DNA from: Candidatus Peregrinibacteria bacterium GW2011_GWF2_43_17
GTDB taxonomy: Bacteria; Patescibacteriota; Gracilibacteria; UBA1369; UBA12470
DNA: 35,984 nucleotides
Direction of reading: 5' to 3'
Assembly: GCA_000999315.1 (NCBI GenBank)
Contig: LCFW01000008.1
Span: 1 to 35,984, forward strand
The notes below the pieces were generated by a model. It was given only the letters and a program-made list of their open reading frames with translations, searched no databases and had not been told where the DNA came from. Shown piece after piece: positions 5,221-34,255 of the stretch. Positions within the stretch are counted from its first letter, which is position 1; each line of letters starts with the position of its first letter. The position numbers and the translations under genes are program-made.

Positions 5221-5232
5221 GATTCAGGTCTG

Positions 5233-5309: not shown

Positions 5310-5310
5310 G

Positions 5311-5356: not shown

Positions 5357-5374
5357 ATAGTTTGTCAAGTCCTG

Positions 5375-5640
5375 CTAGTTGTAAATCGCATGCAGTCCGA
5401 TACTGACAAAAAGTATTACCCTGTTATCGAGTGGTTTAAATATAATTCGGTATTTCATATCGATTGAAATATTCCATAGTCCATCAAGTTTTTCTTTCAA
5501 TTTATGAAGCCTAATCGAAGGATGAAACGGATTGGCACGAAATAATTTTTCAGCCTTGCATGTTTTTTTTGAATATCTTTCGGGAGACTTAAAAATTGAG
5601 TTTCAAACTCCTTGTTATAGCGAAATTCTTTTACTTGCAT
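5375..5640 (-). pseudogene. RelE/HigB-like toxin, reading frame broken by -1 in an A8 run
   Basis: The frame starts with ATG at 5640 (MQVKEFRYNKEFETQFLSLP) and runs out of frame after an eight-base homopolymer (T8 on the + strand, 5563-5570). Shifting by one base there continues as FRANPFHPSIRLHKLKEKL, then LWNISIDMKYRIIFKPLDNR and a C-terminus ending LHAIYN with stop at 5375. The joined product of 88 residues has the pattern of RelE-superfamily ribonuclease toxins. The span is 266 nt, one base short of a whole number of codons. The ATG overlaps the end of the upstream antitoxin gene by 10 nt, the usual antitoxin-toxin order. It may be an inactive toxin, a sequencing error in the homopolymer, or a gene that uses slippage on A AAA AAA. 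Confidence 0.75.
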
Positions 5641-5822
5641 AAATCCGCGAGACTTTTAAGCTTCTTGGTTTTTCCGGAAATGTAATCTTTTTCCGCTCTC
5701 CCGGCTATTTCGACAAGCTCGTTTTCGGAAATCAGACTTTTTTCAAGCTCGATCATATAAATGATATATGCGCTTGTTGTTTTATTGGCTTTTCTGGCGC
5801 GTTTTTCTATTTCTTCCTTCAT
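5631..5822 (-). CDS. putative antitoxin of a RelE/HigB-type toxin-antitoxin pair
   Basis: 63 residues (MKEEIEKRARKANKTTSAYI...LKSLADLCK), rich in Lys and Glu and largely helical. The size, charge and N-terminal segment resemble ribbon-helix-helix type antitoxins, but the family is not certain. Its 3' end overlaps the start of the RelE-like toxin frame (ATGCAAGTAA contains both the toxin ATG and this stop), which is the main support for the role. A Shine-Dalgarno-like GAGGA lies 5 nt before the ATG. It would neutralise the toxin and repress the operon, by analogy. Confidence 0.6.
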   Translation of the reverse strand: MKEEIEKRARKANKTTSAYIIYMIELEKSLISENELVEIAGRAEKDYISGKTKKLKSLADLCK

Positions 5823-5904
5823 TGAGTCCTCGCTATGAGTCTATAAGACTATTCGTTTATTGGGCTTTATTCCGCAACTCCGCCTTCTGCAACTCTGCTT
5901 TTCG

Positions 5905-5913
5905 TGCTATAAT
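5905..5913 (+). promoter_or_regulatory. extended -10 promoter of pilT
   Basis: TGCTATAAT is a perfect extended -10 box (TGnTATAAT). It ends only 8 nt before the pilT ATG, so the transcript probably begins at or within a base or two of the start codon. Confidence 0.7.
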
Positions 5914-5921
5914 ATACAGAT

Positions 5922-6977
5922 ATGTTAGACGAAATTTTAAAGCTGGTAGTGGCTCATAAGGCTTCTGATATCCATCTTAAAGTTGGACAGCCGCCCGTGC
6001 TTCGTATGCCGAATGGAGATCTTTTATCCGATAACAAGCTCTCTCAATTGACTGTGGAACAGATTGAGGAGATTGCGAAAAAGATAGTGAGCGACAAGAA
6101 ATACGATGAGTTTAAGAATAAAAAACAGGCCGATTCGGCTTATACGTTTCCGGGCGTTGGAAGATTCAGGGTGAATGTTTATTATGAAAATAGTGGTCCG
6201 GCGGTTGCTTTCAGATTGATTCCGGTTGAAATTCCACCTTTTGAAAAACTAGGATTGCCGGCGGTTTTGGCCGAGTTGGCTATGAAGCCGAGAGGGTTAC
6301 TGCTTATTACCGGGCCTACCGGGAGTGGTAAGTCCACGACTTTGGCTTCACTGATAAATATCATAAATGAGCAAAAGAGGTGTCATATCGTGACGATCGA
6401 AGATCCGATCGAGTATATTCACGTTTCTAAAAAAAGCTTGATGACTCAGCGCGAGGTGGGTACCCATGCGGATAGTTTTCCGGATGCGATTAAGGCGAGT
6501 TTGAGGCAGGATCCCGATGTGATTATGGTTGGCGAGATGAGAGATCTTGAAACCATTGCGGCGGCGGTGACTTTGGCGGAAACTGGGCATTTGGTTTTGG
6601 CGACATTGCATACTCAAGATGCCGCGCAGTCGGTTGATCGTATTATCGATGTTTTTCCGGCTTATCAACAGGAACAAATAAGGGCGCAATTGTCCACTTC
6701 GCTTGTTGGGGTTGTTTCTCAGGTTTTGATACCGGTTATAGATGGTTCCAGGCGTATTGCGGCTTGCGAGGTGATGGTTTCGAATGATGCTGTTAAAAAT
6801 TGTATTAAAAACGGCGAAACTCATCAGATTTATTCCATGATTCAGATAGGCAGGGACGAGGGAATGCAGACGATGGATTCAGCTTTGGCCGTGTTGGTTA
6901 AGGAGGGGTTGGTGGATTTGAGTACCGCACTCGGCAAGGCTCGTGATGTTTCTTTATTTAAATCTTTATTAAATTAA
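5922..6977 (+). CDS. pilT: type IV pilus retraction ATPase PilT
   Basis: 351 residues, normal PilT length. The N-terminal MLDEILKLVVAHKASDIHLK is characteristic. Walker A GPTGSGKSTT is at 131-140, the Asp box TIEDPIEY at 158-165, Walker B DVIMVGEMRD at 199-208 and the His box HLVLATLHTQDAAQ at 223-236. The C-terminal segment AACEVMVSNDAVKNCIKNG replaces the AIRAGE region. This hexameric cytoplasmic ATPase drives pilus retraction; no pilin or PilB gene is in the window. It is followed after 4 nt by a cyclic-nucleotide-binding/GAF gene, probably in one transcript. Confidence 0.95.
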   Translation: MLDEILKLVVAHKASDIHLKVGQPPVLRMPNGDLLSDNKLSQLTVEQIEEIAKKIVSDKKYDEFKNKKQADSAYTFPGVGRFRVNVYYENSGPAVAFRLIPVEIPPFEKLGLPAVLAELAMKPRGLLLITGPTGSGKSTTLASLINIINEQKRCHIVTIEDPIEYIHVSKKSLMTQREVGTHADSFPDAIKASLRQDPDVIMVGEMRDLETIAAAVTLAETGHLVLATLHTQDAAQSVDRIIDVFPAYQQEQIRAQLSTSLVGVVSQVLIPVIDGSRRIAACEVMVSNDAVKNCIKNGETHQIYSMIQIGRDEGMQTMDSALAVLVKEGLVDLSTALGKARDVSLFKSLLN

Positions 6978-6981
6978 ATTT

Positions 6982-7884
6982 ATGGCAGGTATAAAAGAGA
7001 TTCTGGGTAAATTTTTCACTTCCGAGGATGTGGCGAAATCTCTTTCGGCGCTTTTTAAAGAAGTCGCTTTTAAAAAAGGTGACGTTGTTTTTAAGGAGGG
7101 GTCGAATAGCAGAGAGCTTTATTTGATAGCGGAAGGTGAGGTGCAAATACTTAAAGAGATTCCGGGTGGAGGGATGAAAATTTTTGCGGTTTTGGGTGAA
7201 GGTGATGTGTTTGGTGAAGGGTCGCTTCTCTCTTCCAGACCGAGGAGTGCTTCTGCGGTTGCGGTTTCTTCTGCTGTGCTTTATATGTTCAAATATGACG
7301 ATTTCAAGACCCTTTTACAAAAAGAGGCGGCTGTTGCGGCTGAGCTTCTGATGGTTCTTGTCAGGGTAGTTAATCAGAGGCTTCAATATGTGAATTCCGA
7401 GTTGATAACGCTTTATGAGGTTACAAGAATTTTGAGTGGTGCCGGTGCGGATTTGAGAGGCGCTTGCGCCGAGGTTTTGAAAAAACTTTCCGATGTTACG
7501 GTTTCCGAGCAGGCCTGTGTGCTTTTGCATAATGTTGCGACCGCGAAAGAGGATATGTTTGCGGTGGGAGAGGGGAGCGATGCTGAATTTATATCTAAAA
7601 TTACAGCCATTTCGTCAGATAAGGTTAAGATGTTTTTGGAGGCTCCTTCGTTGAGATATGAAAATGAGAAAGGTGTGACTTTGTGGTTGCCGATCAGGAA
7701 TTCTCAAGGTAAATTTTTAGGAATTGTTATACTTGGAAACAAGGAAGGCGAATTTATCGGTGACCAAGTTAAACTTGCCGTGGCTGTGACTGAACAGCTT
7801 GGGACGGCGATTGATAGGCATTACAAACAAGAGGATGATAAGGAAAAGCAGAGGTTGAAGCAGAGGATAGTTTCGGGGCTATAA
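6982..7884 (+). CDS. cyclic-nucleotide-binding domain plus GAF-like domain protein
   Basis: 300 residues. Residues about 10-115 form a cNMP-binding beta-roll (FKKGDVVFKEGSNSRELYLI, then GEGDVFGEGSLLSSRPRSASAVA, matching the phosphate-binding cassette pattern FGExxLL...R.A). Residues about 140-285 (LYEVTRILS ... WLPIRNSQGKFLGIVILGN) resemble a GAF domain. No helix-turn-helix is seen, so this is unlikely to be a Crp-type transcription factor. It starts 4 nt after pilT, which suggests a regulator of pilus retraction or motility. The 3' end overlaps the convergent trpA by 6 nt. Confidence 0.8.
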   Translation: MAGIKEILGKFFTSEDVAKSLSALFKEVAFKKGDVVFKEGSNSRELYLIAEGEVQILKEIPGGGMKIFAVLGEGDVFGEGSLLSSRPRSASAVAVSSAVLYMFKYDDFKTLLQKEAAVAAELLMVLVRVVNQRLQYVNSELITLYEVTRILSGAGADLRGACAEVLKKLSDVTVSEQACVLLHNVATAKEDMFAVGEGSDAEFISKITAISSDKVKMFLEAPSLRYENEKGVTLWLPIRNSQGKFLGIVILGNKEGEFIGDQVKLAVAVTEQLGTAIDRHYKQEDDKEKQRLKQRIVSGL

Positions 7885-8601
7885 TAGGAAATTTTTTATG
7901 GCGCTGATTTTACCGTTTGCGCATGAATTATAGAGATTGATGATTTTGCTTCCAATAACCACAATATCGGCATGTTTTGAGGCTGTTGATATTTGTTGTT
8001 TGTTTGATATGCCAAAACCTAAAGCCAGCGGTATTTTGATATACCGCCGTATTTTTTTGAGATAAGAGTTCAGTTTCGGATTAAGTTTGTTTTTTTCTCC
8101 CGTTGTTCCGAAAGTTGATACGCAATATACGAAACCGGTTGCGACTTTGGCGATTTTCTTAAGTCTTGTCGGAGGAGTAATCGGTGAAATGATTTGGATG
8201 GCGTGAAGTCCGTGTTTTTTGCAGTTCTCGAGATAATGTTCGTGTTTTTCTTCATTTATCGGAATATCCGGGATAATAAGTCCGTAAACGTCAGCTTCGC
8301 GAGCTTTTTTGCAAAATTTCTCAAGACCGTAACGGAATGGAATATTGAAATAAGTCATGATTAAAATCGGTGTTTTGATTTTTTTCGTTATTCTTTTTAT
8401 CAATTTCAAACAGTCTTCGGTTGTCACTCCGTTTAAAAGAGCTCTCTTATTTGCCTCCATGATCGTAGGGCCATCGGCAATAGGGTCGGAAAAAGGGATT
8501 TGTATCTCTATAAAAGAAACACCCGTTTCAGCCATTGCCAATATGATTTTTTCACATTCGATCATGCCTGGATATCCTGCGACCACATGTGTCATTTTCA
8601 T
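7879..8601 (-). CDS. trpA: tryptophan synthase alpha chain
   Basis: 240 residues, slightly shorter than the usual 260-270. FIEIQIPFSDPIADGPTIMEANKRALLNG is the TrpA signature and contains the catalytic Glu and Asp region; YCVSTFGTTGEK and ALGFGISNKQQI complete the phosphate-binding loops. It cleaves indole-3-glycerol phosphate to indole for TrpB. It is the last gene of the leftward trp operon; its start overlaps the 3' end of trpB by about 50 nt. A second in-frame ATG lies at 8595. Confidence 0.95.
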   Translation of the reverse strand: MKMTHVVAGYPGMIECEKIILAMAETGVSFIEIQIPFSDPIADGPTIMEANKRALLNGVTTEDCLKLIKRITKKIKTPILIMTYFNIPFRYGLEKFCKKAREADVYGLIIPDIPINEEKHEHYLENCKKHGLHAIQIISPITPPTRLKKIAKVATGFVYCVSTFGTTGEKNKLNPKLNSYLKKIRRYIKIPLALGFGISNKQQISTASKHADIVVIGSKIINLYNSCANGKISAIKNFLL

Positions 8602-10635: not shown

Positions 10636-12833
10636 GATTTCAGTTTGTTAAATATTAAACCGATTTTTTTCCGATCGATTTCCCCGTTGGTTTCGGCGCC
10701 ACTTGCGATATCTATTCCCAGAGGATTGGTTTCTTTGATGGTTTTTTTCATGTTCTCGGGAGTAAGACCGCCCGCAAGCAGGAACGGAAAATTCACGTTT
10801 TTCAAATCGATGTTTATCGGTTTTCCAGCTCCGGGTGAGGAACCATCTAGTAAAATATATGCGGCATATGGCAGATATTTCCCAGCTTTTTTTAAATTGT
10901 TTTCGTTTCGTATTGAAATTCCTTTGATGACCGGTTTGCAACATTTTTTTACAAACTTTACGGATTCGTTTCCGGAAAGTTGGATGTAGTCGAGATTGAG
11001 TTTTTTCGCAGTTGTATTGATTTCTTCAAGCGGTTGATTTTGGAAAACACCGACAATTTTTGTTTTCTTAACCGCCTTGCGAATTTCGCGAGCCTTTTCA
11101 ATTGAAATAAATCTTTTACTGCTCGGTACAAAATTCAGTCCGATAAAATCAACTCCGAGTTTGTCGCAAAATTTGGCATCTTCAACGGATCTGATCCCGC
11201 ATATTTTCAACTTCTTGCCAATGAATTCGGAAATCGGTGTTCCTTTCATAAGAGCCGTTCCCACCAAAATCGCGGAAACATTTTCAGGGAGTTTTTCAAT
11301 GTCTTCCGCCGAGTGAAATCCGCTTTCGGAAACGACGATTTTGTCGGGGGGGATATGTTTGGCGATTTTTGCGGTTGTGGAAATATCAACTTTAAATGTA
11401 TGTAAATTCCGATTATTTATTCCTATTATCTGCGCTGAAGTTTTCAGCACCTTGGAAAGTTCGTTTAAGGTGTGAACTTCGCATAAAGCGTCCATGTTTA
11501 AGCTTTTTGCGACCGTTATGAAATCTTCCATCTGTTTTTCGGTTAAAATCGAGGCTATCAGCAAAATCGCATCCGCTCCGTGTTTTCTTGCCTCGTAAAT
11601 TTGAGATGCGTCTATGATGAAATCTTTGCAGAGAATCGGTGTTTTGGAAGTGCTTTTCGAGGTCTCTTTCAGATATTTCAGATCTCCATCGAAAAACTTT
11701 TTATCGCAAACAACGGAAATCGCATCGGCTCCCGAGTTTTCATAATTTCGAGCTATTTCGGATGGTGAGAAGTTTTTTTTGTATATAGTTCCGGCACTGG
11801 GAGAAGCCCTCTTGATTTCGGCGATTAAGGACAATCCGTTTTTTCCGAGCGCGCCTGCAAAATCTCGAGTTGATGGCGCAATCCCGATTTCTTTTCTCTT
11901 GTGTTCAACGATTTTTAGAAGAATATCGGGTGTATTTATCGCTTGCGATGCCGCTTCATACCCTTCTTTCAGGGTTCGAACTTTGTCTGTTAACTTTAAT
12001 GCGAGTGCAGTATTTATCAGAACCAAATCTTTATGTCGCGTTTTGCATTCGCCTTTCAAAATGTCTGTGGCGATACGCGTGTTAAATTGTGCGTTCCCGC
12101 CTTTAATTTCATGAAAAACCGCGCTTTTTATGCCAAAATTTTCCGGAGTAATTGTATAAGATTTGATGTTTCCATTTGAGAGTTCCATGACTTGTGTTTT
12201 TCCTGTTAAAGTCACCTCATCCAGCCCATCTTCGCCGCATACGACATAAACTTTTTCTTTTCCGAGCAGTAGGCAAGTTTCGGCGATAAGCTCCATTTTA
12301 TCCTTGAACGTCGTGCCTATAATTTGTTTTTTCGGAAAAGCCGGATTAAGAAGCGGACCGAGAAGATTAAAGAAGGTGGGTCGTCCTATTTTTTTGCGCA
12401 TTTCGGCAAAATTTTTCATTACAGGGTAAAAAAATGGGGCGAAGAGAAAAGCCAACCTCTCTTTTTTAAATTTTTCTTCGATATCCGAAATATTATCCGT
12501 AAATTTTATTCCCAACGATTCGAGAAGGTCGAAACCGCCGAACCTGCCGCTTGCGGCTTTATTCCCGTGCTTTGCGACCGGGATACCGAGTTTGGCGAGA
12601 ATAAATGCGGAAATGGTCGAAGTGTTGATCCTCTCAAGCCCCGAGCCTCCCGTTCCGCAAATATCAATGGCGTTTTTAAGATAAGGTTTGTTTGGGATCT
12701 GTTTTTGTAAAAATCGAACAACGTTTGCCAGTTCTTTCGGAGTGATGTCCGTTTTGGAGCCGAGAAATTCCACCTGTATTTCAGGTGACAATTTTCCTTT
12801 TATGCTCAGTTGAAGAAATGTTAATAAATTCAC
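10629..12833 (-). CDS. trpDCF: trifunctional TrpD-TrpC-TrpF fusion enzyme
   Basis: 734 residues in one uninterrupted frame. About 1-300 is anthranilate phosphoribosyltransferase (DICGTGGSGLERINTST at 57-73, AKHGNKAASG at 87-96). About 301-543 is indole-3-glycerol-phosphate synthase (SLIAEIKRASPSAG with E339 and K341, LCKDFIID with K403, GINNRNL, VSESGFHS). About 543-734 is phosphoribosylanthranilate isomerase (KICGIRSVEDA with catalytic C545, GLNFVPSSKRF, GIDIASGAE with D708). Three consecutive steps of tryptophan synthesis are thus on one chain. E. coli fuses TrpC-TrpF and TrpG-TrpD; a D-C-F fusion is unusual. It overlaps trpG by 4 nt. Confidence 0.95.
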   Translation of the reverse strand: MNLLTFLQLSIKGKLSPEIQVEFLGSKTDITPKELANVVRFLQKQIPNKPYLKNAIDICGTGGSGLERINTSTISAFILAKLGIPVAKHGNKAASGRFGGFDLLESLGIKFTDNISDIEEKFKKERLAFLFAPFFYPVMKNFAEMRKKIGRPTFFNLLGPLLNPAFPKKQIIGTTFKDKMELIAETCLLLGKEKVYVVCGEDGLDEVTLTGKTQVMELSNGNIKSYTITPENFGIKSAVFHEIKGGNAQFNTRIATDILKGECKTRHKDLVLINTALALKLTDKVRTLKEGYEAASQAINTPDILLKIVEHKRKEIGIAPSTRDFAGALGKNGLSLIAEIKRASPSAGTIYKKNFSPSEIARNYENSGADAISVVCDKKFFDGDLKYLKETSKSTSKTPILCKDFIIDASQIYEARKHGADAILLIASILTEKQMEDFITVAKSLNMDALCEVHTLNELSKVLKTSAQIIGINNRNLHTFKVDISTTAKIAKHIPPDKIVVSESGFHSAEDIEKLPENVSAILVGTALMKGTPISEFIGKKLKICGIRSVEDAKFCDKLGVDFIGLNFVPSSKRFISIEKAREIRKAVKKTKIVGVFQNQPLEEINTTAKKLNLDYIQLSGNESVKFVKKCCKPVIKGISIRNENNLKKAGKYLPYAAYILLDGSSPGAGKPINIDLKNVNFPFLLAGGLTPENMKKTIKETNPLGIDIASGAETNGEIDRKKIGLIFNKLKSC

Positions 12834-26647: not shown

Positions 26648-26827
26648 ATTTATGTCGAGTGTATTCCAAAGTTTGTTTTTTGTATCGATTTTGGTTCGGC
26701 AACTACTACTTTAGTTTAATAATTGCCGATTTTTTCGTTCCATATAAATAAGCAGAAGAAATCGGTAAAACCTTTTCCAGTTTTTCAATAATCTTTTGGT
26801 ATTTTTTGTGGCATAGTAATTAAATTT

Positions 26828-26953
26828 TAATAACGTCTGTGGTTAACTGAAGCGTGGTAGTGGTAAAATCTTACCATCACTACCGTATTTCAGCGAGAGC
26901 TTGTGTGTGCGAAGCCGACCAAAAGAACCCGAACCGCATATACGTTGTTAGCC
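26828..26953 (-). repeat. attC-like site A (distal, degenerate)
   Basis: Left box TAATAAC is poor; the right box is GTTAGCC (26947-26953). The inner palindrome 26853-26866 / 26871-26885 with the TAAAAT motif is preserved, but the outer arms (left GTGGTTAACTG, right CGCATATACG) do not pair. The right arm resembles that of site K (GCGAAGCCGACCAAAAGAACC). Confidence 0.65.
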
Positions 26954-26961
26954 GATGTATT

Positions 26962-27183
26962 TTATTTTCTTCGGTCGAATAAACTTGCGATGGGAGCTTC
27001 ATCACCATCTTCTTCTGGTTCTTGGTCTTCAGGATCTTTCCCCTCAACTTGCTCTATAAGATATCGAACGCCCATAGTGAGACCATCAAGTTCTCCATGG
27101 CCACTTGCTGTTTCTACCGTTCTTCCATCTTCAGCTAGATATTCACCTTTATTTGACGGATCATCAATTGGTAGTGGGTTCAT
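26962..27183 (-). CDS. cassette 10: small acidic hypothetical protein
   Basis: 73 residues from the ATG at 27183 (MNPLPIDDPSNKGEY...); the frame extends to 27240 but TTAAC lies 9 nt before this ATG as in the other cassette genes. The C-terminal half is very acidic (QVEGKDPEDQEPEEDGDEAP) and ends ASLFDRRK. The family is unknown. It lies between site A and the truncated site at 27252, with matching A/T-rich inverted ends (GTATTTTATTT / AAATAAAATAT). Confidence 0.6.
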   Translation of the reverse strand: MNPLPIDDPSNKGEYLAEDGRTVETASGHGELDGLTMGVRYLIEQVEGKDPEDQEPEEDGDEAPIASLFDRRK

Positions 27184-27251
27184 TTTAAAGGGGTTAATAA
27201 TTTGGCAAGACATTTTTGCGCTAATTTGCGAATGTGTCAAATAAAATATTC

Positions 27252-27264
27252 ACTTAACGTTCCA
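27252..27264. repeat. truncated attC remnant
   Basis: ACTTAAC (27252-27258) is a perfect RYYYAAC box followed by GTTCCA, as at the start of sites E and F, but the next site begins 6 nt later. Only the first edge of a site remains, so a deletion removed the rest and its cassette. Confidence 0.55.
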
Positions 27265-27382
27265 GGCTAACGTCCATGAATAACTGAAGTTTGGTGGCGG
27301 TAAAATTTGGAGCGGAGAGACATATCGCCGCCAAATTTGGGAGAGCGAACGGAGTGAGTGAACCAGTTATTCATTGTTAGCG
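27265..27382 (-). repeat. attC-like site B
   Basis: GGCTAAC (27265-27271) and GTTAGCG (27376-27382) bound it. Outer stem 27276-27286 / 27364-27374 (11 bp), inner stem 27290-27299 / 27326-27335, TAAAAT at 27301-27306. The 3' side has an unpaired purine-rich stretch (GGGAGAGCGAACGGAGTGAG). Confidence 0.85.
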
Positions 27383-27387
27383 GATAG

Positions 27388-28113
27388 TTGGGCTGTTTTT
27401 ACTTATTCAGCAAACTGGATTGTTTGAATTACATTTTGAGCATCATCGTTGCTATTCACAACTTGAATCTCAAAAATATGGTTATTCACTTCCAAGTAAT
27501 ACTTCACAACCTCATAGCCGATTTCTGTGCCATAAGTTATTGTTTTTGCTTCAACTCCGTTAATATCCTGCGTACCTTCCGAATATGGGAGAACATCACA
27601 TTCGGTGTTTGGATATGGTGCTGCTACACAGTTTTCTTTTGCATCAGTCAGTGTTTCACTATATGCAGTCATTAAATCAGTATCTAGAACCCGAATGAAA
27701 AACCCCTCTGTCCAATAGGAACCGAGTGATGCATACTCTGTTTCTTGCCCTACCCATATGGTACTTTCGTCTTCAGTGCCGTCGTTATCGTAACCTTCTG
27801 TAAGAACTTGAAAATTGTCTAAAAGATCCAATGAATAACCATATTTTTCATTTACGTAATCACCTTCAAGCGTGGTATTTTCTTCATCTTCTATAGATTG
27901 CATGTCATTTTTTAGGTCTTCATTTTCAGTTTGTAATACTTCAACTGCATCCTGAAGAGATTCAAGTTGTGATTGTTGCCAAAAATAAACTCCACCTCCA
28001 ACGATGATGGCGGTGAGTAGGATTGTTAGCAACGTGGCTAATGTTTTGTTCATACTTTTTGAGTTAAATGCTAAATGGATTATATGTAAAATTGCTGGAT
28101 AAAAACAGCCCAA
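27388..28113. repeat. inverted repeats bounding cassette 9
   Basis: TTGGGCTGTTTTTA (27388-27401) is perfectly complementary to TAAAAACAGCCCAA (28100-28113). The similarity extends out to the R boxes (GTTAGCGGATAG versus the complement of ATTTCAGCTAAC). Confidence 0.85.
27403..28053 (-). CDS. cassette 9: membrane-anchored protein with coiled coil and extracytoplasmic domain
   Basis: 216 residues from the ATG at 28053 (MNKTLATLLTILLTAIIVGG); the longer frame to 28113 runs into cassette-end DNA, and TTAAC lies 9 nt before 28053. One N-terminal membrane helix is followed by a short coiled coil (QLESLQDAVEVLQTENEDLK) and an acidic folded domain with two Cys (ENCVAAP, TECDVLP). The family is unrecognised; it resembles PsbP/lipoprotein-like domains only in general shape. 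It is bounded by a perfect 14-bp inverted repeat. Confidence 0.7.
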   Translation of the reverse strand: MNKTLATLLTILLTAIIVGGGVYFWQQSQLESLQDAVEVLQTENEDLKNDMQSIEDEENTTLEGDYVNEKYGYSLDLLDNFQVLTEGYDNDGTEDESTIWVGQETEYASLGSYWTEGFFIRVLDTDLMTAYSETLTDAKENCVAAPYPNTECDVLPYSEGTQDINGVEAKTITYGTEIGYEVVKYYLEVNNHIFEIQVVNSNDDAQNVIQTIQFAE

Positions 28114-28117
28114 TTTC

Positions 28118-28257
28118 AGCTAACGTCGGCGCATATAAGAAGAAATGCGAAACGAGTTGAGGTGGTATAATTTGTGCGGAGCACTACCACCGAAAACGAG
28201 TGTAGCATTTTTTGCGTGAACGACCAAAGGGAGTGAACCTTATATGCGCTGTTAGGC
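28118..28257 (-). repeat. attC-like site C
   Basis: AGCTAAC (28118-28124) and a perfect GTTAGGC (28251-28257). Outer stem 28129-28139 / 28239-28249 (11 bp, perfect). The inner part pairs GGTGGTA with TACCACC; TATAAT at 28166-28171 is preceded by TGG, giving a full extended -10 sequence; tip hairpin GTGC-GGA-GCAC. Confidence 0.85.
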
Positions 28258-28604
28258 GCAGTGGTTATTTACTTTTTAAAACTTTAATTTCATTATCGTA
28301 TTTCTGAAGTATTTCAGGTATTTCATTTTTAATTTTCATTGATTTAATCATTGGAACGGCAAGTACAATGATAACGATAATAAAAACTCCAATAGAATAT
28401 AAAGGTTGATTATCGTAAATTGCTAAAAAAACGAAAATACTTGCCGCAAGAATATATTGAAGAGAAATACGAATGGCTTTACTAAAATTTGCTTTTTTTG
28501 TCATCAATACCTTAAATAATTCTCTTTCTCTTTCAGATAATTTGTCATCGATTTGAGATTTCATAATTATTAAGGTTAATAATATTTAGACCATTGCGCC
28601 TAAC
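28251..28604. repeat. inverted repeats bounding cassette 8
   Basis: GTTAGGCGCAGTGGT (28251-28265) and ACCATTGCGCCTAAC (28590-28604) are complementary at 14 of 15 positions, including both R boxes. Confidence 0.8.
28265..28564 (-). CDS. cassette 8: small two-helix membrane protein
   Basis: 99 residues. A charged N-terminus (SERERELFKVLMTKKANFSK) is followed by two membrane segments (about 32-50 and 55-71) and a Lys-rich tail (NEIPEILQKYDNEIKVLKSK). The family is unknown. TTAAC lies 10 nt before the ATG. It fills its cassette almost completely. Confidence 0.7.
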   Translation of the reverse strand: MKSQIDDKLSERERELFKVLMTKKANFSKAIRISLQYILAASIFVFLAIYDNQPLYSIGVFIIVIIVLAVPMIKSMKIKNEIPEILQKYDNEIKVLKSK

Positions 28605-28710
28605 GTTCCGGAATAACAGAAGTTGTGCAGGTGTATAATAGCCGAAGGCTGGCACCTGCACAATTTGAGTGAAGCTCTGCAAGAGCTGAACCTGTTATTC
28701 CGTGTTAGCC
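28598..28710 (-). repeat. attC-like site E
   Basis: Perfect GCCTAAC (28598-28604) and GTTAGCC (28704-28710). Outer stem 28609-28619 / 28692-28702 (11 bp, perfect) and inner stem 28623-28633 / 28653-28663 (11 bp, perfect). TATAAT at 28634-28639, tip hairpin AGCC-GAA-GGCT, and a side hairpin AGCTC-TGCAA-GAGCT in the 3' arm. This is the clearest example in the array. Confidence 0.92.
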
Positions 28711-29775
28711 GACCCGAGCCGAAGGCGAGAGCGTAGCGTGGTCGGAGGGAGCGAAGCGACTGAAGACGTACATTTTCACTATTCCCAATGCCGCGATCGC
28801 TTTTCACTTGTTTGGGTGAATTGATTCAATCATGCGAGGGGCAAGAGGGGGTTAGGGGGTGAATTGCCCCGATCAAACCTTTACAAGGTTCTATAAATAT
28901 GTTTCTATACCCTCCTAACATTCAACCATGACAAGACTTGATTTAGCTGCGGAAAATTATGATGACATCCCCTTACATGCTGAGGTTGTAGTCGATGCTT
29001 TGTGCTCGCCAATTCAGTGCGAATCACATGATGGCGAAGTTTTGGAAGTCACTTTGGAGCCACCATTTAGATATCTGGGGGTTGGCAGAGATAAGGTTGT
29101 CGTTTCTGGTTTGGTTCATGGTTTGGATGCGATTGTTGGTGAGTTTGATGCTGTAAATGCTGCTATAGCCCTTGCTCGAAAAAACCATAATGCTCTGGGG
29201 TTTTTGAGTAGCAGTCTGCATGGTTACAGACGGCTAAGGGAACACGTCCCTACTGCGCCTACTTATACTTGGTATTTAGCATCGAAAGATGAACAATTCC
29301 TTGTAATGCCAAATTTGACTAAATATGGTGCAGTTGTTACTGCACAAAATGATCGGATTTTATCCCCAGAGAAAACTGCAAGATTGGAAGCAGCATTTGA
29401 TGACCTTATGGAACAATTAATAAGATTTATTGATGAGTTACCTGCTGGTCTTGTGATTACATTTGACACTTATTTTGCAGTTCTTGAAGAAGCCTCTAGC
29501 CGTTTGTTTTTGGGGGATTTTGATAATACGGCGATTCAATACTCGGGCGATAATTTTCCAGCAGGTCATACTGCTGCTCAGAATCGTAGGCAGGCAGAAC
29601 ATTGGATTGAGTGTATTCAATCTTACCTTCCAACCCCTCGTAATACTTATGACTTTCAATGTTGGGTTCATCAAGATGAACTTCCCCCCCTCTAAAAAAT
29701 AATCAATTCATCCAAACAGGAATACGAAAAGCGGAGTGGCAAAAAAGGAATAGGTAAAAATGTATGTCGGCTAAC
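28704..29775. repeat. inverted repeats bounding cassette 7, with a 55-nt insertion in one arm
   Basis: GTTAGCCGAC (28704-28713) resumes after a 55-nt insertion (28714-28768) as TACATTTT...TTTGGGTGAATTGATT (28769 to about 28825). The partner is about 29700-29775. The inner AATTGATT/AATCAATT region and the TACATTTT/AAAATGTA region are both conserved. The insertion is rich in GCGAAGCGA-type sequence. Confidence 0.75.
28928..29695 (+). CDS. cassette 7: hypothetical soluble protein, opposite orientation
   Basis: 255 residues, no family recognised. It looks like a globular cytoplasmic protein without signal or membrane segments; notable stretches are LEPPFRYLGVGRDKVVVSG, TYTWYLASKDEQFLVMPNL and RLFLGDFDNTAIQYSGDNFP. 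It is one of two cassette genes reading toward the recombinase. A ~100-nt leader precedes it, including a hairpin (GGGGCAA ... TTGCCCC) with G-runs in the loop. CTAAC lies 8 nt before the ATG. Confidence 0.7.
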   Translation: MTRLDLAAENYDDIPLHAEVVVDALCSPIQCESHDGEVLEVTLEPPFRYLGVGRDKVVVSGLVHGLDAIVGEFDAVNAAIALARKNHNALGFLSSSLHGYRRLREHVPTAPTYTWYLASKDEQFLVMPNLTKYGAVVTAQNDRILSPEKTARLEAAFDDLMEQLIRFIDELPAGLVITFDTYFAVLEEASSRLFLGDFDNTAIQYSGDNFPAGHTAAQNRRQAEHWIECIQSYLPTPRNTYDFQCWVHQDELPPL

Positions 29776-29889
29776 GTTCCGCACTTTGCGATGTTTGGCG
29801 CTGGTACAATTTTAGCACGCAGTGCTACACCAGCGCCAAATATGGGCGCAGCGACCAAAGGGAGCGAAGCCGCAAAGTGCGTGTTAGCT
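29769..29889 (-). repeat. attC-like site F
   Basis: GGCTAAC (29769-29775) and GTTAGCT (29883-29889). Outer stem 29780-29790 / 29871-29881 (11 bp, perfect), inner stem 29794-29804 / 29830-29840 (11 bp, perfect), TACAAT at 29805-29810, tip hairpin AGCAC-GCA-GTGCT. The 3' arm holds GCGACCAAAGGGAGCGAAGC. Confidence 0.92.
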
Positions 29890-29893
29890 GATG

Positions 29894-30466
29894 TAAGCCA
29901 AGCCTTTTATTAGTCGATTATTCCTAAATCTCTTGTAGCCTGAATTGTAGCTGCTTTTAGCTCATCAAAAACTTTTGCTCTCTCTATTTTAAACCTAGCC
30001 TCGATTTCTAGGGTTTCATCTGTAGCGTCTGGCCTATCTTTTTTCAGAAGTGATGCTACTTTGCCAACTTTCCATTCTTCATAAGCTTTATCTCTTGCCC
30101 AGTCAAAAGCGATACTGAACGCATCATTATGGTATTGTAAATAATTTGGCAACCATTCTCCCTCTTGTTTAGGGAACAATTGATTCAAACGTTGCCTAAC
30201 ATCGTCGAATGGTATTTTTTTACTAAAGTCATATCCATTTGCCATAATTACTCTGCATAATAGATATTTTGCTGAAAAAAGTAGGCCTCTACTTTGTAAA
30301 TCGGCATCAGATAATTCTTGCTTTAATTCTTCTAAAATAGGGTCTGAATTTTGTGTGCTTTGGTCTTCACGAGGAGTGTTCATAAATTTAAATGGTTAAA
30401 TTGTTTACAAAGGGAAGAATAATAGACACAAAATTCAGAAATTGCAAATTTAAAAGGCTTGGCTTA
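29894..30466. repeat. perfect 16-bp inverted repeats bounding cassette 6
   Basis: TAAGCCAAGCCTTTTA (29894-29909) and TAAAAGGCTTGGCTTA (30451-30466) are exact complements. The left arm abuts the stop codon of the cassette gene. Confidence 0.92.
29910..30383 (-). CDS. cassette 6: hypothetical helical protein
   Basis: 157 residues with high charge and predicted helices, no signal or membrane segment. Trp/Tyr-rich middle (EGEWLPNYLQYHNDAFSIAF, WARDKAYEEWKVG) and a helical C-terminus (IERAKVFDELKAATIQATRD). The family is unknown. TTAAC lies 11 nt before the ATG. Confidence 0.75.
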   Translation of the reverse strand: MNTPREDQSTQNSDPILEELKQELSDADLQSRGLLFSAKYLLCRVIMANGYDFSKKIPFDDVRQRLNQLFPKQEGEWLPNYLQYHNDAFSIAFDWARDKAYEEWKVGKVASLLKKDRPDATDETLEIEARFKIERAKVFDELKAATIQATRDLGIID

Positions 30467-30470
30467 TTTC

Positions 30471-30566
30471 GGCTAATGTTCGCGTATATCTGATGTCCGA
30501 GTTTTGCGAGGATATGGGCGAAGGCTTGCCGTTAGGCAAACCGTAGCCAGATATACGCTGTTATCG
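30471..30566 (-). repeat. attC-like site G (short variant)
   Basis: Boxes GGCTAAT (30471-30477) and GTTATCG (30560-30566) are both off consensus. Outer stem 30482-30492 / 30548-30558 is a perfect 11 bp. The inner stem is reduced (ATGTCC/GGATAT) and there is no TANAAT motif. A side hairpin TTGCC-GTTA-GGCAA lies in the 3' arm. Confidence 0.75.
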
Positions 30567-31049
30567 GATGTAATCAAGAATTTTTAATTCGCCGATTTTA
30601 GGCGAATTTTAATCAGGGCAGATTTATTTTTGTTTTTCTATGGAATCTTCTAATTCATCCATTTCCTTCATAATTGCCTGATAAAGCTCGTTCCTTTGCT
30701 CATTCCATGCTTGCATTCGAGCGGATTCAAAGTTTTCAAATGCTTCTTCTACATATCCAGCTTCAAAATATAAACGCGCTCGCCGAAGATTAAATTGGAT
30801 TGGCGCCTCGGGATCGGTTGATTTTTCAACCATTTGTTCCTGTTCGCGCGTCCAACTATCTAAAAATTCTTTGGTTTCGGGGTCTTCCGTCCTTTTTTCT
30901 TTCAGTAGCCGAACTAATTGTTGCTCGGGGTTCTCCTTGGTTTCAAATTTTTGTTCTTTTTCCATCATATATTTAGAGTTAATAATAAATTTGCCCTGAT
31001 TAATTTTGCTCAGCAGAGCAAAAAAGAATTTTTGATTATTTCCGATAAC
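30560..31049. repeat. about 70-bp inverted repeats bounding cassette 5
   Basis: The region from 30560 to about 30631 is complementary, with few gaps, to about 30981-31049. The best block is TTAATCAGGGCAGATTTATT (from 30609) against 30981-31003 (21 of 23 positions over the longer block). Both outer ends carry the GTTATCGG / CCGATAAC R-box edges. Confidence 0.85.
30624..30968 (-). CDS. cassette 5: small charged helical protein, possibly TPR-like
   Basis: 114 residues from the ATG at 30968 (a second ATG follows at 30965); the longer frame to 31091 runs into site H and is not credible. Highly charged (EKEQKFETKENPEQQ) with a helix-turn-helix repeat pattern ARLYFEAGYVEEAFENFESA reminiscent of one TPR unit. 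No membrane segment. TTAAC lies 9 nt before the ATG. Confidence 0.7.
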   Translation of the reverse strand: MMEKEQKFETKENPEQQLVRLLKEKRTEDPETKEFLDSWTREQEQMVEKSTDPEAPIQFNLRRARLYFEAGYVEEAFENFESARMQAWNEQRNELYQAIMKEMDELEDSIEKQK

Positions 31050-31168
31050 GTCCGAGACTAGGCGATGTTGTTGCGCGGTAAAATATGCCACGAAGTGGCT
31101 AACCGTGCAACAATATGGGAGAACGAAGGAGCGAAGCGACTGAGTGAACCGCCTAGTCTCTGTTGTGT
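31043..31168 (-). repeat. attC-like site H
   Basis: CGATAAC (31043-31049) and GTTGTGT (31162-31168). Outer stem 31054-31064 / 31150-31160 (11 bp, perfect). The inner stem TTGTTGCGCGGT pairs with ACCGTGCAACAA; TAAAAT at 31079-31084; tip hairpin GCCAC-GAA-GTGGC; 3' arm GAACGAAGGAGCGAAGCGAC. Confidence 0.9.
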
Positions 31169-31572
31169 GATGTAAAAATAAGTGCGATTAAACTGGGTTT
31201 GCTTCAATACTAATAACTCCTTGTGAATCTATTAATCTTTCCAAGTGTTCTTGGATGCTGTCTAAAGCTTCACTAATTGACAAACCCTGTTTAATCCGTG
31301 CTCGAAAAGTGCTGACCCAACGGTCTACTAAAGGTTCGAGATTACTTTCTAAGGCTGCTTCTATTTGTGCTCGTGTACTTTCATCAAGGATAATTTGATC
31401 TTCCGGAGTATGGTAGCCCTCTGACAATTCTATTGTTGTATCTGCTTTTGGCATTCTTTCTTCAAGCAATTTTCGAGCACCATCTACAGTGTAATGTTCT
31501 TGCATTAACATAATTTTTTTAAAGTTAGTTTATAGGGGATCACTTATAGCACTTATTTTTATTTCATACAAC
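31162..31572. repeat. inverted repeats bounding cassette 4
   Basis: 31162-31185 and 31549-31572 (24 bp each) are complementary at about 20 positions, with the block AAAAATAAGTGC / GCACTTATTTTT exact. Both include the R boxes GTTGTGT and ATACAAC. Confidence 0.88.
31188..31511 (-). CDS. cassette 4: small hypothetical helical protein
   Basis: 107 residues; acidic, helical, no signal or membrane segment (YTVDGARKLLEERMPKAD at the N-terminus, GLSISEALDSIQEHLERLID at the C-terminus). The family is unknown. CTAAC lies 12 nt before the first ATG; another in-frame ATG is two codons later. Confidence 0.7.
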   Translation of the reverse strand: MLMQEHYTVDGARKLLEERMPKADTTIELSEGYHTPEDQIILDESTRAQIEAALESNLEPLVDRWVSTFRARIKQGLSISEALDSIQEHLERLIDSQGVISIEANPV

Positions 31573-31685
31573 GCCTGCAGTATAAACGAATTTTGACGGC
31601 GGTACAATGTGCCCGAAAGGGCAGACCGCCGGCAAAGTTGGGAGAGCGAAGTGCAACGAGCGAACCGTTTATGCTGCTGTTATGT
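31566..31685 (-). repeat. attC-like site I
   Basis: ATACAAC (31566-31572) and GTTATGT (31679-31685), both off consensus. Outer stem 31578-31588 / 31666-31676 (one G-T pair), inner stem around GACGGCGG / CCGCCGGC, TACAAT at 31603-31608, tip hairpin TGCCC-GAAA-GGGCA. Confidence 0.82.
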
Positions 31686-31866
31686 GACCCGACCGACAGG
31701 GAGAGCGCAGCGAGGCCGAGCGACTGAAAGGAGCGAAGGAGTTTTCACGAGCTTTCAGGATGACGAAGGAAGCAGGGCAGGAGTTTTTGACGACTTTTTG
31801 AGAATTTACAGTTTTAAAAATGCCTCAGCCTTCCTGAGGATTACCTGTAAAGTGAGTGGAAATTTC
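31686..31866. other. cassette 3: about 180 bp with no credible gene
   Basis: Between sites I and J there is no open frame confined to the cassette longer than about 13 codons. It holds a GCGAAGCGA-type purine-rich block (31689-31740), a small perfect hairpin CCTCAG-CCTTC-CTGAGG (around 31822-31838) and short matching ends (GTTATGTGA / TCATATAAC). It could encode a structured RNA or be a decayed cassette. Confidence 0.6.
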
Positions 31867-32009
31867 ATATAACGTCCGCGCGTAGCCGATGTTTGCTGGT
31901 TGTATAATATACTGCGGAGCAGTTAACAACCAGCAAATATGGGTGAGGGTTTTCAGGCTGCGCGAAGCCAGCCGATCAGAAAACCCGAACCGGCTACGCG
32001 CTGTTAGGC
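31867..32009 (-). repeat. attC-like site J
   Basis: ATATAAC (31867-31873) and a perfect GTTAGGC (32003-32009). Outer stem 31878-31888 / 31991-32001 (11 bp, perfect), inner stem 31892-31903 / 31926-31937 (12 bp, perfect), TATAAT at 31903-31908, tip hairpin ACTGC-GGA-GCAGT. The 3' arm folds into its own two-tier hairpin: GGGTTTTC/GAAAACCC around GGCTG/CAGCC. Confidence 0.9.
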
Positions 32010-32035
32010 GCCAGCTGTAGCGAAGCGAAAGCGGG

Positions 32036-32064
32036 TTGCGCTTTTTCTTTTTCTGTGTTATTGT
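32036..32064 (+). promoter_or_regulatory. candidate promoter inside cassette 2
   Basis: TTGCGC (32036-32041), 17 nt, TATTGT (32059-32064) with TGT just upstream. It lies 24 nt before the biuret-hydrolase-like gene, which may therefore be expressed independently of any array promoter. The -35 box overlaps the cassette inverted repeat. Confidence 0.4.
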
Positions 32065-32088
32065 AACTTCCTTTTAAGTAAGCGGCTT

Positions 32089-32766
32089 ATGACTAATGTA
32101 AACATACAAGCGGAACCTACTCCAATCGACGTAAAACTCGATGAAACTGCACTGATCGTGATTGATATGCAGAAGGACTTTTTGCGACATGGTGGATATG
32201 GCGAATCTTTAGGTAATGATGTCGATTTGTTAGCGAGGACAATTGCCCCAATTCAACAAGTAATCAAAGCTATGAGAGACCGAGCAATGCTTGTTATCCA
32301 TACAAGAGAAGGTCATTTGCCCGATTTGAGTGATTGCCCTGCGACAAAACTGCTTCGTTGGCCAGAGGGGCGACGTATTGGAGACCAAGGACCAATGGGA
32401 CGAATTTTAATTCGAGGCGAAGAAGGTCACGGAATTATCGATGAAGTCGCCCCGTTGCCTGATGAAATTGTAATTGATAAGCCAGGCAAAAATGCCTTTT
32501 ACAAGACTGACTTAGAAGCAGTTTTGAGAGAGCGGGGCATTGTAAACTTACTTGTGGCTGGTGTAACCACTGATGTTTGTTGTTCGACCACAGTTTCAGG
32601 GGCAAATGACCGTGGATTTAATGCAATTGTCCTCGCGGATTGTATGGCAGCTTACGATGAGACTCGCCATAAAGCCGCTTTAGAAATTATCAAAGCTCAG
32701 GGTGGAATATTCGGCTGGGTGACTGATTCGCAAAAAGTCCTTCAGGCTTTGTCGAAAGCCGCTTAA
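32089..32766 (+). CDS. cassette 2: biuret-hydrolase-like cysteine hydrolase (isochorismatase family)
   Basis: 225 residues. The fold has ALIVIDMQKDF with D26, IDKPGKNAF with K134, and TTDVCCSTT with nucleophile C164, the Asp-Lys-Cys triad of the family. VIHTREGHLPDLSDCPATK, GDQGPMGRILIRGE and GANDRGFNAIVLADC resemble biuret hydrolase (BiuH) more closely than isochorismatase; ureidoacrylate amidohydrolase RutB is an alternative. Such enzymes release ammonia from small amides or ureides. It is the only cassette cargo with a recognisable enzyme function. It faces opposite to most cassette genes and lacks the TTAAC start signal, which suggests recent acquisition. Confidence 0.85.
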   Translation: MTNVNIQAEPTPIDVKLDETALIVIDMQKDFLRHGGYGESLGNDVDLLARTIAPIQQVIKAMRDRAMLVIHTREGHLPDLSDCPATKLLRWPEGRRIGDQGPMGRILIRGEEGHGIIDEVAPLPDEIVIDKPGKNAFYKTDLEAVLRERGIVNLLVAGVTTDVCCSTTVSGANDRGFNAIVLADCMAAYDETRHKAALEIIKAQGGIFGWVTDSQKVLQALSKAA

Positions 32767-32784
32767 AAGAAAAAGCGCAATGGC

Positions 32785-32919
32785 GTCTAACGTGTCGCAC
32801 TATGCGAAGTTGACTGATGGTAAAATAAGCCGAAGGCGTACCATCAGTCAACTTGGGGGAGGGTTCATGGTCGTGCGAAGCCGACCAAAAGAACCCGAAC
32901 CGCATAGTGCGTGTTGTAC
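32785..32919 (-). repeat. attC-like site K (nearest complete site to the recombinase)
   Basis: Perfect GTCTAAC (32785-32791) and GTTGTAC (32913-32919). Outer stem 32796-32806 / 32901-32911 (11 bp, perfect), inner stem TTGACTGATGG / CCATCAGTCAA, TAAAAT at 32821-32826, tip hairpin AGCC-GAA-GGC. The 3' arm forms a two-tier hairpin GGGTTC/GAACCC around GGTCG/CGACC. Confidence 0.92.
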
Positions 32920-33351
32920 GCCAGCGAACGGAGTGAGTGTGTTTTTGTTGCTATTTTTAATTCGGAAGGCTATTTAAAGCTCTTCTCAGTGAAAGTAAGA
33001 ATAAAAAACGAGGGTCTGGGGCGACTGCACCTTCTGGCACTTCACTTGGAGTAAGGCTGAGGTTTGGGAATGTTATTTCTACTATTTCTATGGCATCAGC
33101 AGGGTTTCCCATGATCTCATGAGCACTTGTTACTATAAATCTTGCGAGTTCATCGCAGTCACTTGCATTTTTAGGAGCGGGTTTAGGTGCAGTCGCGAAT
33201 GCGTGAAACTGAGCTTGTCTAGCTATCTTGTCCATAAGACCTTCAACATCGTGCTGACCATCTGATGCATTTGGATTGCCCATAATAAATAAGTTAATGG
33301 TTTATAAGAGTACATGAATGCTAAAAAATAGCAACAAAAATGGCGTACAAC
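32913..33351. repeat. 28-bp inverted repeats bounding cassette 1, with an 18-nt insertion in one arm
   Basis: GTTGTACGCCA (32913-32923), an 18-nt insertion (32924-32941), then TTTTTGTTGCTATTTTT (32942-32958). The partner 33324-33351 is the exact complement of the two blocks joined together. Confidence 0.92.
32957..33283 (-). CDS. cassette 1: hypothetical protein next to the recombinase
   Basis: 108 residues, no signal or membrane segment. An Asp/His/Gln-rich start (GNPNASDGQHDVEGLMDKIA) is followed by a mixed region with FIVTSAHEIMGNPADAIEIVEITFP and a C-terminal helix (FLFLLSLRRALNSL). The family is unknown. It would be the most recently inserted cassette if the recombinase runs the array. 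TTAAC lies 9 nt before the ATG. The stop codon lies within the cassette's inverted repeat. Confidence 0.7.
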   Translation of the reverse strand: MGNPNASDGQHDVEGLMDKIARQAQFHAFATAPKPAPKNASDCDELARFIVTSAHEIMGNPADAIEIVEITFPNLSLTPSEVPEGAVAPDPRFLFLLSLRRALNSLPN

Positions 33352-33365
33352 TCCGTTTTGTGCGG
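33345..33365 (-). other. half site or candidate attI next to the recombinase
   Basis: GTACAAC (33345-33351) pairs with the GTTGTAC edge of site K across cassette 1, but the following CCGTTTTGTGCGG has no complementary partner to its right. It is therefore a single core box, as expected for an attI, or a truncated attC. It lies 62 nt before the recombinase start. Confidence 0.5.
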
Positions 33366-33427
33366 TGTTTTTAACAAATATTTAATGTTTCGGTGATATT
33401 GTAGGGTGAGAATTTAAATTTACAAGT

Positions 33428-34255
33428 ATGAAAAACATTGAGGAGTGTTTGAAAAACATGCACAAAACGCTTGTTGTGGGCGGGTATAGTCCGAGGACGG
33501 TGGCGATTTATTTGGAGTGTTTGGAGAAATATTTTTTGTTTCTTGGGGAGGGGGCGGAGCTGAGGGTGTTTTCAGAGGAGAAGCTGAAGGAGTTTCTTTT
33601 TGCGAAGTATGAGGCGGGAAGGTCGTCTTCGACTGTCAATCTTTATTTGAACTCGGTGAGATTCTTTTATAGGAGAGTGGTTGGGTATGAGGGGCCGATA
33701 AATGTTAGGTTTGCGAAGAGGAGCGTTAGGATTCCGGAAGTTTTGACGAAGGAGGAGATTCCGAGGTTGATTTTGGCTATTAAAAATAAAAAACACAGGT
33801 TGCTGATCTCGTTGGCTTATGGGGCGGGGTTGCGGGTGTCGGAAGTGATTGCGCTGAAGGTGCGGAATTTTGATTTTGAGAGAAAATTACTTCTTGTCAG
33901 GCATGGGAAAGGTGGGAGAGATCGGGTGACGCTTTTGCCACAAAAGTTGGAGGCGGATATGCGGGTTTTAATTGCGTGGAAGGAGAGCGATGATTATGTT
34001 TTTGAGAGTCAAAGAGGCGGGAAATTGCATTCGAGGACGGCGCAAAAGATTTTCGGAAATGCGTTGAAAGATGCCGGGATAGTTAAAAATGCGACTTTTC
34101 ATGCTCTGCGGCACTCTTTTGCGACACATTTGCTCGAAGATGGGGTCAGTATCAGATATGTGCAGGAGCTTCTGGGGCATCGCGATATCAGGACTACGCA
34201 GATTTATACCAAGGTGACACCAATGTCGCTTTCAAATATCAAAAGCCCTCTTTAG
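33428..34255 (+). CDS. tyrosine recombinase (Xer/IntI-like), candidate integrase of the array
   Basis: 275 residues. The N-terminal SAM-like core-binding domain spans about 5-90 (YSPRTVAIYLECLEKYFLFL). The catalytic domain has all residues: R136 in GAGLRVSEV, K161 in RHGKGGRDR, H225-x-x-R228 in HALRHSFATHLL, H251 in LLGHRD and nucleophile Y260 in IYTKV; it ends SNIKSPL. The spacing between the K161 region and HALRH is short, so the additional segment found in integron IntI proteins is absent and the protein looks more like XerC/XerD or a CPR-type Xer. It is divergent from the cassette array and ends in a hairpin terminator. It could be the host's dimer-resolution recombinase instead. Confidence 0.88.
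   Translation: MKNIEECLKNMHKTLVVGGYSPRTVAIYLECLEKYFLFLGEGAELRVFSEEKLKEFLFAKYEAGRSSSTVNLYLNSVRFFYRRVVGYEGPINVRFAKRSVRIPEVLTKEEIPRLILAIKNKKHRLLISLAYGAGLRVSEVIALKVRNFDFERKLLLVRHGKGGRDRVTLLPQKLEADMRVLIAWKESDDYVFESQRGGKLHSRTAQKIFGNALKDAGIVKNATFHALRHSFATHLLEDGVSIRYVQELLGHRDIRTTQIYTKVTPMSLSNIKSPL

Follow-up and report, generated by a model that had tools for sequence, protein, structure and literature searches.

Organization of the array

We analysed a window of 35,984 nucleotides (contig C8 in our set, GenBank LCFW01000008.1) from the complete 1,204,769-base genome of Candidatus Peregrinibacteria bacterium GW2011_GWF2_43_17, a member of the candidate phyla radiation (CPR), in which an integron-like array of gene cassettes lies beside a tyrosine recombinase gene. 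The interval 26826-33366 comprises ten cassette bodies with as many hairpin sites, plus an attI-like site, and the divergent recombinase gene adjoins them at 33428-34255 (+ strand). A first-pass annotation had described ten palindromic sites with RYYYAAC and GTTRRRY boxes, an 11-bp outer stem in nine of them, and one-gene cassettes of which seven of nine genes read away from the recombinase. All ten sites were found (26826-32921); the outer stem is perfect, with identical spacing, in eight, and a ninth (31570) pairs at 10 of 11 positions, while AAT replaces AAC in one site. The gene counts hold, with a single gene in nine of the ten cassettes, seven directed away from the recombinase and two toward it. 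The assignment to a reduced genome of CPR type was likewise supported, by a class (Gracilibacteria) with TGA-recoded lineages, by genomes of ~1 Mb and by the phylum sample described below.

Scored with a covariance model (R1) built on 18 sites, mostly taken from other genomes, the attC-like sites, all on the + strand, are S1 (26826-26955; 34.7 bits), which is degenerate and lies at the distal end of the array, S2 (27263-27384; 107.1 bits), S3 (28116-28259; 58.9 bits), S4 (28596-28712; 106.0 bits), S5 (29767-29891; 106.4 bits), S6 (30469-30568; 67.4 bits), S7 (31041-31170; 103.9 bits), S8 (31564-31687; 81.3 bits), S9 (31865-32011; 104.3 bits) and S10 (32783-32921; 88.2 bits). Over the whole genome R1 gave exactly ten matches (34.7-107 bits), all in the array and on one strand. 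The genes that read away from the recombinase (- strand) are those of cassette 1 (26962-27240; 92 aa, an open reading frame without family match), cassette 2 (27403-28113; 236 aa, weakly similar to a membrane-anchored coiled coil or PsbP-like protein), cassette 3 (28265-28564; 99 aa, a weakly supported small membrane protein), cassette 5 (29910-30383; 157 aa), cassette 6 (30624-30968; 114 aa, weakly TPR-like), cassette 7 (31188-31511; 107 aa) and the attI-proximal cassette 10 (32957-33283; 108 aa), the products of cassettes 1, 5, 7 and 10 being of unknown function. The two genes in reversed orientation (+ strand) belong to cassette 4 (28928-29695; 255 aa, unknown) and cassette 9 (32089-32766; 225 aa), the latter encoding an isochorismatase- or biuret-amidohydrolase-like protein (Pfam 3e-44; NCBIfam NF050097 at 2e-80, under its cut-off). 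Cassette 8 (31688-31866, no strand; body 195 bp) carries no convincing gene, and gene-less cassettes are likewise known from Vibrio.

A feature beyond those of the first-pass annotation lies at 33345-33366 (+ strand), where a RYYYAAC box (33345-33351) is followed by TCCG (4 nt) and an 11-nt arm, TTTTGTGCGGT, so that it has the same 4 + 11 spacing as the hairpin sites. This element adjoins the recombinase at the point where the cassettes start, the position expected of attI, and it is called attI-like here. The family consensus in related loci is AAC-TCGT-TTTTATRCGAA, ~100 bp upstream of the recombinase start in most of them, and it was found at no fewer than 14 of 18 positions in 45 of 64 loci, compared with 16 of 1280 shuffles (1.3%) and 2 of 64 downstream controls. 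The arm region (33354-33390) is mirrored at 33433-33469, at the start of the recombinase gene (37 nt, 70%), and in two other loci (L083 and L084) the stretch from attI to the recombinase gene contains several TATACGAA arms; these mirrored or extra arms suggest additional binding sites or self-regulation.

Hairpin sites and cassette ends

On the strand of the recombinase, the bottom strand with respect to the cassettes, a site of the shared geometry reads AAC, 4 nt and one arm of the 11-bp stem, and closes with the other 11-bp arm, 1 nt and GTT (4/1 geometry), with RYYYAAC and GTTRRRY boxes present. This spacing was recovered by a hairpin scan without preset spacing over the loci of 40 relatives and the window, in which 70 of 99 hairpins had exactly 4/1; the shuffled-sequence control yielded 14 hairpins in total, and 4/1 was not among its eight commonest spacings. 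With the phylum set added, 114 distinct sites were collected (117 minus three counted in duplicate loci), all of which lie upstream of the recombinase in a single orientation, whereas the reverse reading yields four. R1 found no match on canonical integron arrays, where the 4/1 geometry was likewise absent, and a search of Rfam returned nothing at the array.

Among 18 aligned sites, 98.8% of cells are paired and double changes occur in 22 of 28 pairs, whereas pairing drops to 30-43% in slid-alignment controls. Selection of the sites by their 11-bp stem biases the result toward that stem; the choice of sites disregarded the 14-bp inner stem, and in this less biased part double changes occur in 12 of 14 pairs. 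The inner stem directly continues the 11-bp stem on the 5' side, and on the 3' side the two are separated by an insert of 25-54 nt that is often a hairpin itself. Thus the stems, the spacer and the terminal stem of the attC fold are present with covariation, but the extrahelical bases of canonical attC are missing: the 11-bp stem, which corresponds to the L stem, carries neither such bases nor bulges and has instead the side insert at its junction with the variable terminal structure (VTS). Eight canonical attC sites could be aligned only too poorly to support a covariance model. In 103 of 114 sites it is the recombinase strand that folds better, and 15 of the 18 aligned sites have, at one pair, a G-T wobble that aids folding of the bottom strand. 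Many of the loops are G+C-rich hairpins.

The cassettes also bear specific terminal inverted repeats outside the R boxes, which the first-pass annotation had not described. In each cassette the start matches the reverse complement of the end far past the 7-bp R box, as at 29884-29909 (+) and 30451-30476 (-) in cassette 5 (88% between arms), 31162-31188 (+) and 31546-31572 (-) in cassette 7, 32036-32051 (+) with its partner at 32765-32780 in cassette 9 (100%), and 32942-32958 (+) with its partner at 33324-33340 in cassette 10 (100%). In cassette 6 the repeats form a longer shell (30560-30631, +; 30981-31049, -), whose first arm contains a side hairpin and TTAATCAGGGCAGATTTATT; end arms often bear such side hairpins of their own. 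In 57 of 72 cassettes the score between cognate ends exceeded the 99th percentile for non-cognate pairs; with the first 14 nt excluded, the number was 40 of 72. The same test on one canonical array (Vibrio, 32 cassettes) gave 1 of 32 and 0 of 32, respectively. By position, nine pairs (GTTRNNYGA) are followed by two conserved mismatches (12% and 8% paired) and then by ~70% pairing across the next ten positions, compared with 25-30% for non-cognate pairs over most of the stretch, so that the hairpin stem would extend well into a circular cassette. An explanation of the repeats as merely terminators was rejected, as they are cognate within each cassette and, past a fixed mismatch of 2 nt, extend the R stem in register.

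Comparison across genomes separates these elements from one another. Eight cross-genome cassette pairs have both ends in common (0.08 expected), and none of the eight has its gene in common. The ends of cassette 6 are 92-94% identical to those of a cassette in genome G383, the 228-aa product of which is unrelated, and 84-86% identical to those of a cassette in G363 whose product is methyltransferase-like; both genomes lie outside the class of the window genome, and among 380 genomes these three are the only ones with the inner repeat TTAATCAGGGCARATTTATT in an opposed pair. Sites, too, are found apart from their genes: in a genome of another family (G310), whose array has 14 sites, five are 92-98% identical to S5, all on other genes, and among 20 cross-genome pairs with the same site a homologous gene was found in none and a common shell in one. 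On these comparisons gene, shell and site appear to behave as separate modules.

The recombinase, its relatives and cassette turnover

The recombinase matches Pfam Phage_integrase at 6e-43 and, under cut-off in both cases, the NCBIfam models XerA_Arch and integron integrase (TIGR02249), and its best solved relative, both by sequence and by fold (Foldseek), is VchIntIA of Vibrio cholerae (PDB 2a3v). The catalytic residues R-K-H-R-H-Y are invariant across 20 aligned members. The region corresponding to I2, an IntI-specific domain, measures 14 aa here versus 57 aa in 2a3v, of which residues ~184-239 are missing; this ~43-aa gap relative to 2a3v and IntI1 is found in all aligned CPR members, and the AlphaFold model of the recombinase (pLDDT, its per-residue confidence score, 90) contains no helix at the I2 position. 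According to published work, I2 provides the docking for the extrahelical bases, is required for the capture of cassettes, confers activity on single-stranded DNA and occurs in no other protein (PMC7790495). In the present system I2 and the extrahelical bases, the two partners of one contact, are both missing. In the tree, for which rooting and IntI sampling are thin, 34 of 36 CPR recombinases form a clade (support 100/99), two deeper CPR members falling outside; the clade stands beside IntI with weak support (86/65), and the next branch comprises recombinases of Bacteroidota of the recombinase-associated acquired interbacterial defence (rAID) type. Three further recombinases were seen in this survey. 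One of the CPR clade (L078/L090, on contig C73 of G242) has its own insert of ~35 aa at the I2 position, not like that of IntI, and adjoins a 12-bp site of 4/1 geometry. A true IntI (L089, on contig C21 of G307; 460 bits, over the NCBIfam cut-off) occurs alongside an I2-less recombinase. An IntI1 relative annotated as 'integron integrase' on the E. coli plasmid p135-2 (L142, 6917-7819), 300 aa long compared with 337 aa in IntI1, is apparently an internally shortened copy.

Of the 353 genomes of the class, 110 contain relatives of the recombinase, mostly 45-56% identical, and among 380 genomes sampled across the phylum 49 contain homologues at E <= 1e-40. The TIGR02249 cut-off was exceeded in only one of the 353 class genomes. 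Many of the relatives' loci lie at contig ends, as expected because the arrays are repeat-rich. A comparison of the recombinase with genome contigs and viral contigs gave no close relative, the relatives coming from a separate genome search; phages yielded no dedicated recombinase relative, plasmid matches were 35-42% identical, and the plasmid relatives from Novosphingobium and Persicobacter had no such hairpins. Sites are present in 123 of 341 class genomes, and sites and recombinase occur together in 79, where 39.7 would be expected (p 7e-21).

Comparison of relatives, of the kind proposed in advance as a check for cassette gain or loss, revealed differing arrays in two cases. G272 and G273, of one genus, are 88% identical over 2.4 kb past the recombinase, and their arrays match in the attC-like sites only; G106 and G107 likewise have a syntenic flank and arrays that match in the attC-like sites only. 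Since the arrays differ between congeners with syntenic flanks, cassettes turn over. Some arrays contain duplicated cassettes; in the TGA-recoded genome of L095, near-identical copies within a single array (98% over 942 bp, oriented coordinates 4763-8136) suggest a recent duplication.

The longest open reading frame is antisense to the recombinase in 86 of 104 cassettes. Cargo in the relatives includes restriction enzymes (HaeIII, Mrr), DNA methylases and Abi-like, Fic, HNH and macro domain proteins, and consists mostly of unknowns; nearly no cassette genes are common to different arrays, and such matches as there are cover short N-terminal segments or show weak homology. In 13 of 69 cassettes a sequence upstream of the gene matches the sigma-70-like pattern at 10 or more of 12 positions, versus one in shuffles and none on the other strand. 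Elsewhere in the window, about three direct repeats of ~90 bp lie between two tRNA genes (4780-4853 and 5233-5306; whole interval 4780-5306) and yield a repetitive open reading frame.

Interpretation and comparison with known systems

Our data suggest that the locus is a platform for cassette capture, of the integron kind, with an I2-less sister of IntI as its enzyme, which most likely acts on the folded bottom strand, and we put the probability of this reading at roughly three in four. The first-pass annotation had called the arrangement integron geometry and the platform a working one. The geometry, with its divergent recombinase and its attC-like site 3' of each gene, is strongly supported by the relatives across the phylum; the recombinase, however, is without I2 and the sites are without extrahelical bases, and because these two tested features fail we set the system apart from canonical integrons. 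A working state is inferred from turnover between congeners. The I2 helix may either never have been present in the CPR recombinases or have been lost from them.

In the mechanism that we propose, a cassette composed of one gene and one attC-like hairpin would enter at the attI-like site (33345-33366), with cleavage between G and TT of the GTT triplet, and cassettes would stack away from the recombinase, with loss or exchange in the course of evolution. The enzyme would act on the folded bottom strand of each site, the recombinase strand. There the unbulged 11-bp L stem, the 4/1-nt spacer and an R stem of at least 9 bp would form a near-perfect duplex mimicking a double-stranded core site, and no protein element would then be needed for reading extrahelical bases. 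After excision, the cognate R'' and R' would be rejoined in the circle, and the stem would extend another 10-60 bp into the terminal repeats, which would stabilise the fold in the circle and favour reintegration. The 4/1 spacer is a candidate means of avoiding a lethal second strand exchange. The anatomy of sites, ends and recombinase, with its conservation and covariation, and the turnover of arrays are seen in the sequences; single-strand recombination, the cleavage point, the circles, the effect of the terminal repeats and the avoidance of a second exchange are what we infer.

Several points weigh against this reading. Neither excision, circles nor strain-level gain or loss was observed. 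I2 is held to be necessary for cassette capture and to be the source of activity on single-stranded DNA (PMC7790495), so that hairpin sites in the absence of I2 call for a different solution or for recombination of double-stranded DNA. The Vibrio cholerae repeats (VCR), under the same energy model, gave no clear strand bias (11 of 35), and therefore a bias in folding energy is by itself weak evidence for the strand used. Forty-four class genomes have sites without a recombinase match, such as G246 (10 sites), G306 and G352, in the manner of clusters of attC sites lacking integron integrases (CALIN), and 31 have the recombinase without sites; gaps in metagenome-assembled genomes may explain part of this mismatch. 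On the same side stands an alternative that we consider unlikely, namely a Xer/dif-like system in which a double-stranded core is recombined at the RYYYAAC/GTTRRRY junctions, the hairpins playing a passive part as terminators or insulators. Xer sites have 11-bp arms, as the sites described here do, and the arm of the attI-like site is conserved in sequence. Enzymes of the Xer type, without I2, recombine double-stranded DNA (PMC7790495). However, the 11-bp arms of the hairpins vary with compensatory changes and match the attI-like arm at no more than a few central bases, which makes a recognition read from double-stranded sequence hard, and the fixed 4/1 spacing, the strand bias and the uniform orientation suggest that the fold is read.

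That a canonical integron, with IntI and attC, merely resides in a CPR genome is less probable still, although the RYYYAAC/GTTRRRY boxes, the attI-like site and the orientation of genes and recombinase would all agree with it, and the AACG at the start of the bottom strand is also found in eight canonical sites. Such an integron would not be expected to have an I2 region of ~14 aa where 2a3v has 57, a TIGR02249 score under the cut-off here and in all but one of the 353 class genomes, or an unbulged L stem with a side insert of 25-54 nt; moreover, the terminal repeats are missing from Vibrio cassettes, and canonical arrays show neither the 4/1 geometry nor R1 matches. We give very little credence to an explanation of the palindromes as dispersed repeats, resembling repetitive extragenic palindromes (REP) or miniature inverted-repeat transposable elements (MITE), or as terminators in an ordinary operon beside an incidental recombinase. 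The G+C-rich hairpins in many loops and the side hairpins at cassette ends would suit it, but all ten genome copies sit in the array, sites are always upstream of and co-oriented with the recombinase across the phylum, and sites and recombinase co-occur at the genome level (p 7e-21).

We give somewhat less than even odds to a wider and more tentative reading: the CPR systems would form a branch of integrons that predates I2 or does without it. In that branch the folded cassette end, with its near-perfect duplex core, would do the job of I2, and gene, shell and attC would be exchangeable, cassettes being built by placing new genes in a conserved end frame. In the accepted account, integron integrases shifted from double-strand to single-strand recombination by gaining the I2 helix (PMC7790495). 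I2-less recombinases together with attC-like hairpins throughout a phylum would make this account testable in nature and are a candidate for the earlier state. The conserved end shells around unrelated cargo provide direct sequence material on how integron cassettes form, and exchangeable gene, shell and attC modules, if true, bear on the origin of such cassettes. This gene-capture system is seen in lineages with genomes of ~1 Mb. Within a literature coverage that left out bioRxiv and most subscription journals, no report of integrons in CPR, Gracilibacteria or Peregrinibacteria was found, and Patescibacteria are absent from the list of phyla with integrons in a 2021 review (PMC8618304).

Compared with known systems, the CPR arrays resemble integrons, including the superintegrons of Vibrio and the integrons of archaea (PMC9668308), in their divergent recombinase, proximal attI-like site and mostly co-oriented single-gene cassettes, as well as in the RYYYAAC/GTTRRRY boxes, the hairpin sites with spacer and terminal stem, the turnover of arrays and the CALIN-like sites without recombinase. 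They differ from integrons in the recombinase without I2, the 11-bp L stem without extrahelical bases, the 4/1 spacer, the 25-54 nt side insert at the L/VTS junction, the cognate terminal repeats reaching 10-60 bp past the R box, and the good sigma-70-like promoters of some cassettes. The rAID clusters of Bacteroidales (PMC12247911) are similar in having an I2-less tyrosine recombinase that adjoins an array of short accessory genes with conserved motifs between them, and their recombinase stands near those of CPR in the tree; there, however, the recombinase is co-oriented with the genes and the cargo consists mainly of immunity genes, whereas in CPR the recombinase is divergent and the cargo mixed. 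The arrangement that characterises rAID, a recombinase followed by co-oriented low-GC immunity genes, was not found in the CPR arrays, and the repeats of a rAID locus (L143) gave no site of 4/1 geometry. On a plasmid of Pontibacter kalidii (L141, NZ_CP111080), weak matches of the site model at 11288-11357 and 12072-12129 (28.8 and 15.7 bits) fall precisely in the gaps between small co-oriented genes that lie downstream of an I2-less recombinase, so that hairpin sites possibly extend beyond CPR to Bacteroidota. Finally, the CPR sites are like those of Xer/dif and of the CTX phage in their 11-bp arms and in a hairpin that would mimic a double-stranded site for an I2-less enzyme, as the single-stranded hairpin of CTX mimics the double-stranded dif site for Xer (PMC7790495). 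In contrast to the sequence-conserved sites of Xer, the CPR hairpins lack such conservation, and they are found within long arrays of cassettes accompanied by a dedicated recombinase.

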